DNA of 43,999 nucleotides, taken from NCBI GenBank assembly GCA_016866775.1, contig VGLJ01000039.1, forward strand, positions 1 to 43,999. Reading direction: 5' to 3'. Source of the stretch: Candidatus Rokuibacteriota bacterium. GTDB lineage: Bacteria; Methylomirabilota; Methylomirabilia; Rokubacteriales; CSP1-6. The notes beneath the pieces were generated by a model. That model did not search any database. It worked only from the letters and a program-made list of their open reading frames with translations, and had not been told where the DNA came from. Each line of letters opens with the position of its first letter. Positions within the stretch are counted from its first letter, which is position 1. Below are positions 8,739 through 20,231 of this stretch, in pieces. The translations under genes and the position numbers were made by a program.

Positions 8739-9695
8739 ATGGCGGTCGTCCTGGGCACGGGCGCGTACCGGTACGAAGTCGTCGACAACTGGGCGAAGCT
8801 GCCGCCCGGCATGGAGTTCAATGCCGACGTCGCGGCCGTCGGCGTCGACATGCACGATCGCGTGTACGCGTTCAACCGCGGCAAGCATCCGATGTGCGTC
8901 TTCGACCGTGACGGCAACTTCCTCGCGTCGTGGGGCGAAGGCGTCTTCAAGCGCGCGCACGGCGTGCACATGGCTCCCGACGAGACGATCTGGCTGACGG
9001 ACGACGGCGACCACACCGTCCGCCACTGCACGCTGGACGGGAAGGTCCTGCTCACGATCGGCGTGCCCGGCAAGCCCCAGGCGTACATGAGCGGCCAGCC
9101 GTTCAACCGCTGCACGCACACCGCGCTGTCTCCGCAAGGGGACGCCCTGTACGTGTCCGACGGCTACGGCAACTCGCGCGTCCACAAGTACGACCTCAAC
9201 GGGACGCTGCGGCTCTCGTGGGGCGAGCCCGGCACCGATCCCGGCCAGTTCAACATCGCGCACAACATCTGCTGCGACGCGGAGGGCTGGGTCTACGTCG
9301 CCGATCGCGAGAACCATCGCGTGCAGGTCTTCAATGGGAACGGCACGTACGAGACGCAGTGGAACAACATGCACCGCCCGTCCGGGCTCTACCTGCATCG
9401 CGGGGCGGAGCCGCGCTTCTACGTCGGCGAGCCGGGCGGCGGCATGGCGGTGAACCAGGAGCTGCCGAACATCGGCCCGCGCGTCAGCATCTACACGCCG
9501 AAGGGCGAGATGCTCGCGCGCCTCGGCAATCGCGTCGCCGGCACCGAGCTCGGCCAGTTCATCTCGCCGCACGGGCTCGCCGTCGATTCCCGCGGCGACA
9601 TCTACGTCGGCGAAGTCTCGTACACGAACTGGGGCCGTCGCGGGCCGATCCCGCCGGGCCTGCGGAGCCTGCAGAAGCTCGTGAAGGTCCGCTGA
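8739..9695 (+). CDS. NHL-repeat beta-propeller protein, peptidyl-amidoglycolate-lyase-like
   Basis: A 318-residue protein with at least five NHL-type blades, seen as repeated Y/F-V-x-D/N motifs followed by R-V/F-D: HDRVYAFNRGKHPMCVFDRD, ALYVSDGYGNSRVHKYD, WVYVADRENHRVQVFN, FISPHGLAVDSRGDIYVGE. Bacterial proteins of this kind are related to the lyase half of peptide-amidating enzymes, and many have no known activity. No signal peptide is seen, so a cytosolic role is likely. ATG 8739 has an AGGAGGG site. The gene overlaps the following hydrolase by one base (TGATG), making it the first member of a five-gene coupled cassette. Confidence 0.85.
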   Translation: MAVVLGTGAYRYEVVDNWAKLPPGMEFNADVAAVGVDMHDRVYAFNRGKHPMCVFDRDGNFLASWGEGVFKRAHGVHMAPDETIWLTDDGDHTVRHCTLDGKVLLTIGVPGKPQAYMSGQPFNRCTHTALSPQGDALYVSDGYGNSRVHKYDLNGTLRLSWGEPGTDPGQFNIAHNICCDAEGWVYVADRENHRVQVFNGNGTYETQWNNMHRPSGLYLHRGAEPRFYVGEPGGGMAVNQELPNIGPRVSIYTPKGEMLARLGNRVAGTELGQFISPHGLAVDSRGDIYVGEVSYTNWGRRGPIPPGLRSLQKLVKVR

Positions 9696-17601: not shown

Positions 17602-17635
17602 TCCTGATAGAGTCAACTCCGCGAAGGAGGACCCC

Positions 17636-18259
17636 ATGAGCGAGCCCGTCCTGATGCAGATCTTCTCGGACTACGTCTGACCCTGGTGCTATCTCAGTAC
17701 CGTGCGTATTGAGAGACTGAAGCGCGAGCACCACGTTCGGATCGAGTGGGTCCACTTTCCGCTCCACCCGGAGACGCCCCCGGAAGGCCGGGCCCTGGCC
17801 GACCTCTTCGCGGGACGCAGCCCCGAGCAGCGGAAGGCGATGCACGAGCAGATGAAGGCGCGCATGGACGAGGAAGGCCTGCCGTACGGCGCGCGCACGC
17901 ACACGTACAACAGCCGGCTCGCGCAGGAGATCGGCAAGTGGGCCGACACGCAGCCCGGCGGCGAGGCGGTCCATGACGCGTTCTTCCGCGCCTACTTCAT
18001 CGACGCGCGCGACATCTCGAACCCCGAGGTGATCCTCGACATCGTCGAGAAGGTGGGCCTGCCGGTGGACGCCGCGCGCGAGGTGCTGGAGCAGCGCACG
18101 TTCAAGGAGGCCGTCGACGCCGACTGGAAGCTGTCGCGCGAGTACGGCATCACCGGCGTGCCGACGTTCGTCGTCGGCCGCTACGGCGTGGTCGGCGCGC
18201 AGCCCTACGCGGCGCTGGCGCAGCTCGTGCGCGAGGCCGCGGAGCCGATCGACGAGTAA
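17636..18259 (+). CDS. DsbA/FrnE-family thiol oxidoreductase, candidate selenoprotein (U-P-W-C active site)
   Basis: ATG 17636 follows AAGGAGG by six bases and reads MSEPVLMQIFSDYV, then TGA (17678-17680), then PWCYLSTVRIERLK and on to 18259. The FrnE-like DsbA family has F-S-D-x-x-CPWC-Y at just this place, so the TGA replaces the N-terminal, nucleophilic cysteine of CPWC (residue 15). The remaining 192 residues are an intact thioredoxin-fold domain with the cis-proline loop ITGVPTFVVGRYGVVGAQP, and the total of 207 residues is normal. There is no decay downstream. No signal peptide is seen, so the protein is probably cytosolic. A SECIS-like hairpin follows the TGA. Conventional gene callers would start at 17702 or later and lose the active site. 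Nonsense mutation is the alternative, less likely given intact sequence on both sides. Confidence 0.88.
17692..17714 (+). promoter_or_regulatory. Bacterial SECIS element in the DsbA-like selenoprotein gene
   Basis: TCTCAGTAC (17692-17700) pairs with GTATTGAGA (17706-17714): nine consecutive pairs, one of them G-U, closed by the loop CGTGC (17701-17705) with G in second position. The loop begins 20 bases after the TGA. All this fits the accepted bacterial SECIS layout. The stem uses codons rare in the surrounding GC-rich genes (AGT, CGT, ATT, AGA), suggesting selection on RNA structure and not on protein alone. Confidence 0.8.
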
Positions 18260-18262
18260 CCG

Positions 18263-19300
18263 CTAGATCGCGTTGCCGCGGTAATAGGTCGTCGTGCCCT
18301 CGTGGCCGACGATCCCGCGCGTGCCCTTGTACGCGTGGACCTCGGCGGTGAGGGGACGGACGCCGTCGAGCATCAGCCACAGCCGCAGCAGGTGGCGCTT
18401 GCGCGCCGGGTCCGGGTCGTCCTCGAAGCTCGTCCGGTTGTGGAGCATCGTGCAGTTGTTGAAGAAGATCATCTGGCCCGGCTCGAGCATGAAGTTGAGC
18501 TGCACGTCGGGGCGCCGCCCGACCTCGTCGAAGTAGTCGAGCGCGGCCTGCTCCTCCTCGGTGAGCGGCGTGGCGAGCTCCTTCGCCGCCATCTCGATGT
18601 AGGCGCGCAGCCACACCACGCTCATCGCGCCTTCGCTCTCGGACAGCACGGGGACGCGATACGGCGTGATCGCCGGCTCGCCCGTCGCCTCTTCTCCCCG
18701 GCGGTGGTACGGGAATCCCGCGAACAGCGGCTCGAGCAGCTCGGGGCGCGAGGCCAGGATCTCGTTGTAGATGGTGTGAGCGCTGGCGTAGCCGCTGCGT
18801 CCGCCTTCGGTCGCCTTCCGGATGCAGAGCATGCCGACGATGTCGGCGCGATCCGTGTGCAGCGTGAGCTCGCGGCTGTTCCGGTACGCGCGCTCGCGCC
18901 GGTCCTTGCCGCCGACGTCCACGACGTGCCCGAGCCGATCGCCCATGGAGCTCTGCGACACCGCGCGCCCGAAGTGGGTGCCGAGACCGAAGAACAGCAT
19001 GCCGAGGTCGTCCGTGGTGTAGCGGTCGCGCGGAAGCTCGCGCAGCAGGAGGAAGCCGCGGCCGCGCAGCACCTCGTCGCGCCACGCGGCGACGTCGCCG
19101 GCGATCGAGTCGAGCGCGAAGTCGCGCGCGGTGAGGTCTTCCGTGTTCCGCCCCGCGCGGCGATTGGCGGCGATCGCCGCGTCGAACGCCGCCAAGTGCG
19201 CGTCGGTCAGCGTGAACGAGTACGCGTCCGGCGTCGCGAAGTCGGCCGGCTTCCACGCGCTGCGGGCTCGAACGGGCGTTCGCTTCGTGACGATACTCAT
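18263..19300 (-). CDS. TauD/TfdA-family dioxygenase (second, longer type)
   Basis: A 345-residue iron/2-oxoglutarate-type oxygenase. Iron ligands His148 and Asp150 lie in ELTLHTDRADIVGML; the distal His is in TMLHNRTSFED and the oxoglutarate-binding Arg in RHLLRLWLML. GRGFLLLRELP and AVSQSSMGDRLGHVVDV are typical of the larger TauD-like proteins related to clavaminate synthase/GbbH-type enzymes. It differs clearly from the copy at 12509. ATG 19300 has GGGAGG upstream; an in-frame upstream extension would run into the LLM gene. It converges on the seleno-DsbA gene with only three bases between the stops. Confidence 0.9.
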   Translation of the reverse strand: MSIVTKRTPVRARSAWKPADFATPDAYSFTLTDAHLAAFDAAIAANRRAGRNTEDLTARDFALDSIAGDVAAWRDEVLRGRGFLLLRELPRDRYTTDDLGMLFFGLGTHFGRAVSQSSMGDRLGHVVDVGGKDRRERAYRNSRELTLHTDRADIVGMLCIRKATEGGRSGYASAHTIYNEILASRPELLEPLFAGFPYHRRGEEATGEPAITPYRVPVLSESEGAMSVVWLRAYIEMAAKELATPLTEEEQAALDYFDEVGRRPDVQLNFMLEPGQMIFFNNCTMLHNRTSFEDDPDPARKRHLLRLWLMLDGVRPLTAEVHAYKGTRGIVGHEGTTTYYRGNAI

Positions 19301-19340
19301 GCTGCCTCCCCGGCTCCGCTTGAGGCATTCTAGTCGCGAC

Positions 19341-20231
19341 ATGAACGTCGGGGTGATCTTTCCTCAGACCGAATGCGGCACCGACATCGCGGCGATCGCG
19401 GCGTTCGTCCGCGAGGTCGAGGCGATGGGCTTCGATCATCTCTTCGTGGCCGACCACGTCCTCGGCGCGGATCCGAGGTTCCATTCGCATCCCTCGCTCG
19501 CCACGTACTCCCACGAGGCCGTCGTGCACGAGGCGCTGACCCTCATGGCGTACCTCGCCGCGATCACGAGCCGGATCACGCTCGCGACCGGGATCCTGAT
19601 CCTTCCGCAGCGGCAGACGGCGCTCGTCGCGAAGCAGGCGGCGGAGATCGACGTGCTGAGCGGCGGGCGGCTGCGCCTCGGCATCGGCGTGGGCTGGAAC
19701 GCCGTCGAGTTCGAGGCGCTCAACGAGACCTTCGAGAATCGCGGGCGCCGCAGCGCCGAGCAGATCGCGGTGCTGCGCGCGTTGTGGACGCAGCCCGTCG
19801 TCGACTTCCGCGGCGAGTTCCATCGCATCAGCCACGCCGGCCTCAACCCCATTCCGATCCAGCGGCCGATCCCGATCTGGTTCGGCGTCGGCAGCCGCGA
19901 TCACCCGGTGCCGCCGGCCGCGGCGCTCAGACGCATCGCGCGCCTCGCCGACGGGTGGAGCCCGAACTTCACGCCGGACGCGCAGGGCCGGACGCTCGTC
20001 GACCAGGTCCACCGCTACGCGCGCGAGGCCGGCCGGGATCCCGCGACGCTTCCGCTGGAAGGCCGCATCCGGCTCGCGGGTCAGAACGCGGACGGCTGGA
20101 CGAAGCAGGTGGAAGCGTGGAAAGCTCTGGGTGCGAGCTCCATCATCGTGGAGCCGAGGGGCGGGAAGCTTCGTTTCCCGGACGAGCAGCTCGACGTGCT
20201 ACGAAGGTTCAAAGGAATGGTGAAAGCATGA
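19341..20231 (+). CDS. LLM-class (F420/FMN-dependent) oxidoreductase
   Basis: A 296-residue luciferase-like monooxygenase-fold protein: [20 protein letters not shown] at the start, [48 protein letters not shown] and [12 protein letters not shown] are all in the expected order. These features are those of the TIGR03619-like F420-dependent group, but FMN cannot be excluded from sequence alone. The start ATG 19341 lacks a strong ribosome-binding site. The stop overlaps the CoA transferase start by four bases, so the pair is cotranslated. Confidence 0.9.

Follow-up and report, generated by a model that had tools for sequence, protein, structure and literature searches.

A predicted selenocysteine-containing FrnE-type DsbA-family protein in Candidatus Rokuibacteriota

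Introduction

A gene from a Candidatus Rokuibacteriota bacterium carries an in-frame TGA exactly where the nucleophilic cysteine of a CPWC active site would stand. Is this codon a stop, or is it read as selenocysteine (Sec), and what kind of protein would then be made? The gene lies at 17636-18259 on the plus strand of the window, which is the whole stretch of 43,999 nucleotides analysed here and belongs to a 5.13-Mb draft genome of 159 contigs that is 97.5% complete. The Rokubacteria are presumably part of the phylum Methylomirabilota. A genome of Methylomirabilota was predicted to have 63 selenoprotein genes in a recent review (PMC13188914), and our literature search for Rokubacteria selenoproteins, or for DsbA-like members from Rokubacteria, returned no description.

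Results

The read-through frame

The gene starts with an ATG at 17636, and a Shine-Dalgarno sequence, AAGGAGGA, is read directly at 17624-17631 on the same strand, 4 nt upstream of it. Codon 15 is the TGA (17678-17680, context V-U-P-W-C), beyond which the frame stays open to the TAA at 18257-18259, yielding a protein of 207 aa. The position of the TGA, the intact ribosome-binding site and the intact flanks, which are conserved in relatives, bear out what the initial annotation had claimed. Cys18 (17687-17689), the putative resolving cysteine, is the sole cysteine codon of the translation, with none beyond it, and is invariant in an alignment of 33 sequences. In thioredoxin folds the cis-proline loop, here TGVPTF, is expected opposite the active site; its T-G-V-P part is encoded at 18155-18166 (region of residues 174-177), and V175 and P176 are invariant in the same alignment.

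The next start codon past the TGA is a GTG at 17702. The list of open reading frames contains the corresponding shortened frame (17702-18259, plus strand, 185 aa), which lacks the active site and is the one expected from a standard gene caller. Automatic annotation would probably place the start at this GTG and miss the active site, as the initial annotation foresaw, because no NCBIfam selenoprotein model scores above cut-off. The only model matched, NF041057 (Rcas_1661 family thioredoxin-like (seleno)lipoprotein, DsbG-like), also describes a thioredoxin-fold (seleno)protein; membership was rejected, since the match reaches 35 bits against a cut-off of 190 and covers the C-terminal part only.

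The predicted FrnE-type fold

The read-through protein contains a PF01323 (DSBA) domain (E 9.5e-37, 127 bits, cut-off 25.6), and Sec opens its UxxC motif (U15-P-W-C18), as in DsbA-like UxxC proteins. In sequence it matches FrnE of D. radiodurans (DR_0659, PDB 5cnw/5cp1; E 1.1e-25). An AlphaFold2 model of the protein, made from 33 relatives, has a pLDDT of 92.9, and its best fold matches in the PDB are the same FrnE structures (TM 0.88, 32% identity in the fold alignment). FrnE is thus the nearest known structure in both sequence and fold, in agreement with the DsbA/FrnE type proposed initially. The two proteins share the DsbA-type thioredoxin fold, the CPWC-type site and a predicted cytosolic location, whereas FrnE has Cys in place of Sec.

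In addition, drFrnE possesses a C-terminal CX4C pair (239-244), which has been proposed to serve regeneration (PMC8945050), whereas the window protein stops at residue 207 and lacks the pair, having no cysteine other than C18. The CX4C is present in many FrnE proteins, though not in all (PMC8945050), and is therefore not a required feature of the subfamily. The N-terminus, MSEPVLMQIFSDYV as read directly, is without a hydrophobic segment of the kind expected as the export signal of a periplasmic DsbA oxidase. Since the FrnE subfamily is predicted to be cytoplasmic (PMC8945050) and no N-terminal signal sequence is seen here, the protein is probably cytosolic.

The genes next to the Sec gene vary among relatives. 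In several Rokubacteria relatives (L044, L045, L049 and L051) a gene for a luciferase-like flavin enzyme on the same strand ends 9-32 nt before the Sec gene, and in some an NHL-repeat protein is encoded upstream. Both families also occur in the window, at 19131-20231 (luciferase-like) and 8739-9695 (NHL-repeat), each away from the Sec gene.

These neighbours bear on the function of the protein, which could be a selenoprotein and yet act as an isomerase or a catabolic enzyme resembling glutathione S-transferase (GST) or 2-hydroxychromene-2-carboxylate (HCCA) isomerase, and not as a general redox enzyme. Folds of kappa GST and of HCCA isomerase are indeed among the next best matches of the model, and the upstream luciferase-like and NHL-repeat genes of several relatives, with both families in the window, would suit such a role. 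However, sequence and fold are nearest to FrnE, the UPWC/CPWC pair is invariant, pointing to redox chemistry, and a disulfide reductase role has been proposed for FrnE of D. radiodurans (PMC8945050). We consider a catabolic enzyme of this kind unlikely, and lean towards a role of the Sec-containing FrnE-type protein as a cytosolic disulfide or peroxide reductase.

The SECIS hairpin and the Sec machinery

Downstream of the UGA, UCUCAGUAC (17692-17700) pairs with GUAUUGAGA (17706-17714), forming a 9-bp stem with one G-U pair that closes the 5-nt loop CGUGC (17701-17705). The hairpin at 17692-17714 on the plus strand is as the initial annotation described it, apart from its distance: the 20 bases given hold for the loop, whereas the stem begins 11 nt past the UGA. 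Published rules for the bacterial SECIS call for a stem of 4-16 bp, a loop of 3-9 nt located 16-37 nt past the UGA, a G within the first two loop positions and an MFE of at most -7.5 (PMC13188914). The hairpin conforms to all of them, with its G at loop position 2 and an energy of about -13 to -17 kcal/mol, varying with the stretch folded.

The raw folding energy is ordinary, as 72% of synonymous shuffles reach an equal or better fold and dinucleotide shuffles of the region give z = -1.8; the hairpin alone is therefore weak evidence, and folding energy was dropped as an argument for a SECIS. The in-register 9-bp stem, in contrast to the raw energy, was recovered in 0 of 2000 synonymous reshufflings. 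Moreover, silent sites are frozen. All 22 distinct Rokubacteria-like genes share the codons CTC AGT ACC GTG CGT ATT, although AGT (1/107), CGT (7/304) and ATT (4/81) make up only 1-5% of usage elsewhere in these genes, which are related by descent and do not count as independent events. Within the window gene, codons ending in A or T occupy 5 of 9 positions in the hairpin versus 6 of 175 elsewhere (p = 3e-5).

Across the Sec genes (34 distinct sequences, again related by descent), 92% of stem cells are paired, versus 27-52% with a slid partner, and loop position 2 is always G. In Cys homologues 53% of stem cells are paired, and most are without the loop that has G at position 2. Inside the gene's own subfamily the stem is nearly invariant, so that this support reflects sequence constraint and not covariation. 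An Rfam scan of the window at gathering scores gave no match.

The Sec machinery, which the initial annotation had proposed to search for, is present in full. The genes for SelA (504 bits) and SelB (381 bits) adjoin on contig C43, preceded on the same strand by tRNA-Sec (70 bits, Rfam), and SelD (336 bits) is encoded on contig C31. The selD gene, too, carries an in-frame TGA, located near the N-terminus just ahead of ASK and with a strong hairpin behind it; this TGA probably marks SelD's own active-site position.

UGA is recoded as other residues in other lineages, and decoding here by another tRNA, for example by Trp or Cys suppression, would account for the open frame. The full Sec system of the genome, the constant alignment of the codon with Cys, and the SECIS-type hairpin kept in TGA forms but not in Cys forms all speak against it, and with Trp in place of Cys the active site would be lost. 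Decoding as a residue other than Sec is therefore very improbable.

Conservation of the codon and of its flanks

At this codon, 43 relatives (50-100% identity over the aligned part) have TGA and 47 others (at least 46% identity over the aligned part) have TGC or TGT. No other codon occurs among these relatives, and TAA or TAG is found in none of the 43 closer, stop-bearing ones, so the homologues show the choice between TGA and Cys that the initial annotation had asked about. This is decisive against the proposal that an ordinary CPWC protein acquired the TGA through a sequencing error or as a pseudogene stop. The draft state of the assembly would allow for an error, but the same TGA recurs in the 43 relatives from independent assemblies, both flanks are conserved and a frozen hairpin follows it. 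The orthologues refute this proposal, to which we give almost no credence. Equally implausible is a true start at the GTG 17702 with untranslated sequence upstream, which would yield a truncated DsbA-fold protein without active site: the 185-aa frame exists and gene callers would pick it, but a strong Shine-Dalgarno sequence precedes the ATG 17636, nearly all relatives conserve the protein sequence ahead of the TGA (F-[ST]-D-Y-V), and truncation would remove the first strand of the fold.

Co-occurrence with SelA and history of the Sec form

SelA was found in all 15 near-relative genomes that have a match to the window protein. It is present in 57 of 60 near relatives overall, which makes co-occurrence among them nearly uninformative, and the test was therefore repeated on 48 more distant genomes. 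There, SelA occurs in 13 of 17 genomes with a Sec form and in 3 of 31 with a Cys form (p = 4.9e-6, computed without correction for relatedness). SelA was not found in the Sec-form draft genomes G060, G068, G070 and G071, which may be due to incomplete bins, missing contigs or misbinning.

Among named relatives, Candidatus Rokuibacteriota are the nearest. Contigs with the labels Proteobacteria, Acidobacteria and Deltaproteobacteria also contain Sec forms, and some of these contigs may come from mislabelled bins. On a maximum-likelihood tree built from 96 proteins, four changes between Sec and Cys are required, and well-supported branches force three of them. A Cys form from Caenispirillum (L073:964-1557) clusters with a Sec form and retains the hairpin sequence in a partly decayed state, and SelA was not found in its genome. 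This history looks like a loss of Sec by reversion to Cys. With its near-invariant SECIS in several phyla, the FrnE-type gene may have passed from one lineage to another as a complete selenoprotein gene.

Other PF01323 genes with TGA

Each of the three PF01323 matches in the window's genome has a TGA where the nucleophile would be encoded, with a candidate hairpin 3' of the UGA. The second gene (L119; contig C11, 48524-49093, minus strand) reads FSDYL-U-PWCYNAAVRL, with its TGA at 1525 of the reverse complement. It resembles Cys forms in two relatives, L032 and L036, which have TGC at that codon, and this resemblance suggests a switch between Sec and Cys inside its family. The third gene (L120/L121; contig C77, 1049-1531, minus strand) reads FSDYQ-U-PYC, preceded by a hydrophobic stretch at the N-terminus, and about 22 nt past its UGA lies a hairpin of 7 bp with a GGUC loop. 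Among the PF01323 matches listed for 60 relatives, about 60 or more, counted by eye, carry one TGA.

The C11 gene belongs to a second U-P-[WY]-C subfamily from Rokubacteria and their class (L026, L029, L034, L037 and L119). This subfamily resembles the window gene in its PF01323 domain, its TGA at the nucleophile and a similarly placed hairpin loop. It differs in identity (about 28-34%), in the residues that follow the motif (UPWCYPAAVRL or UPWCYNAAVRL), in the sequence of its GC-rich stem and, for the members placed in the tree, by forming a separate clade. In nine sequences of the subfamily, 59% of stem cells are paired in the exact register of the window hairpin; in L037, 8 of 9 pairs are kept with mostly different bases.

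Six further UxxC/CxxU-like TGA candidates in the window were rejected, as they look like wrong-frame reading of GC-rich sequence.

Discussion

The TGA of this gene very probably encodes Sec in a FrnE-type DsbA-family protein, a prediction drawn from nucleotide and protein sequence. The product would be a cytosolic thioredoxin-fold disulfide oxidoreductase of the FrnE branch, in which Sec replaces the attacking cysteine of CPWC. During translation, SelB, directed by the SECIS loop, would insert Sec from the genome's own Sec-tRNA. The selenolate of U15 would then attack an oxidised substrate, which may be a protein disulfide, a low-molecular-weight disulfide or a peroxide, and C18 would resolve the intermediate as a selenenylsulfide with U15. 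The Sec15/Cys18 selenenylsulfide of the initial annotation is likewise inferred chemistry. Because the regeneration pair of the drFrnE type is absent, an external reductant, such as thioredoxin or a low-molecular-weight thiol, is proposed to regenerate the enzyme.

COG2761 is the FrnE group. The family is not new, and its novelty had been overstated initially: descriptions of UxxC DsbA-like selenoproteins, assigned to COG2761, date back to 2005 (PMC1088965), such proteins were counted in marine data in 2008 as PF01323 'DsbA 1' (PMC2398784), and a 2026 catalogue has the entry 'DsbA-like protein form 1' (PMC13188914). The main text of the deep-Sep paper names no DsbA. The catalogued DsbA-like family (reference NIP15863.1) and the window gene share PF01323, Sec as the first residue of UxxC and a bacterial SECIS. 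As such proteins have been catalogued since 2005, the gene is a well-supported addition to a known kind. Modestly new are the FrnE-type orthologue group with its SECIS and the TGA nucleophile in all three PF01323 genes of one genome.

Our analysis provides a well-defined SECIS with clear silent-site constraint, in a gene of an uncultured lineage whose active site is probably lost in automatic annotation. Tentatively, and with somewhat more doubt than confidence, the entire detectable PF01323 set of this genome, composed of two cytosolic-type UPWC proteins and one membrane-anchored or exported UPYC protein, may use a Sec nucleophile, the FrnE-type gene possibly having been passed between lineages already in its Sec form. 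If this is true, disulfide handling by the DsbA fold in this genome would be entirely selenium-dependent. With TGA in three of three PF01323 genes, the lineage could help to explain why disulfide exchange favours selenium.
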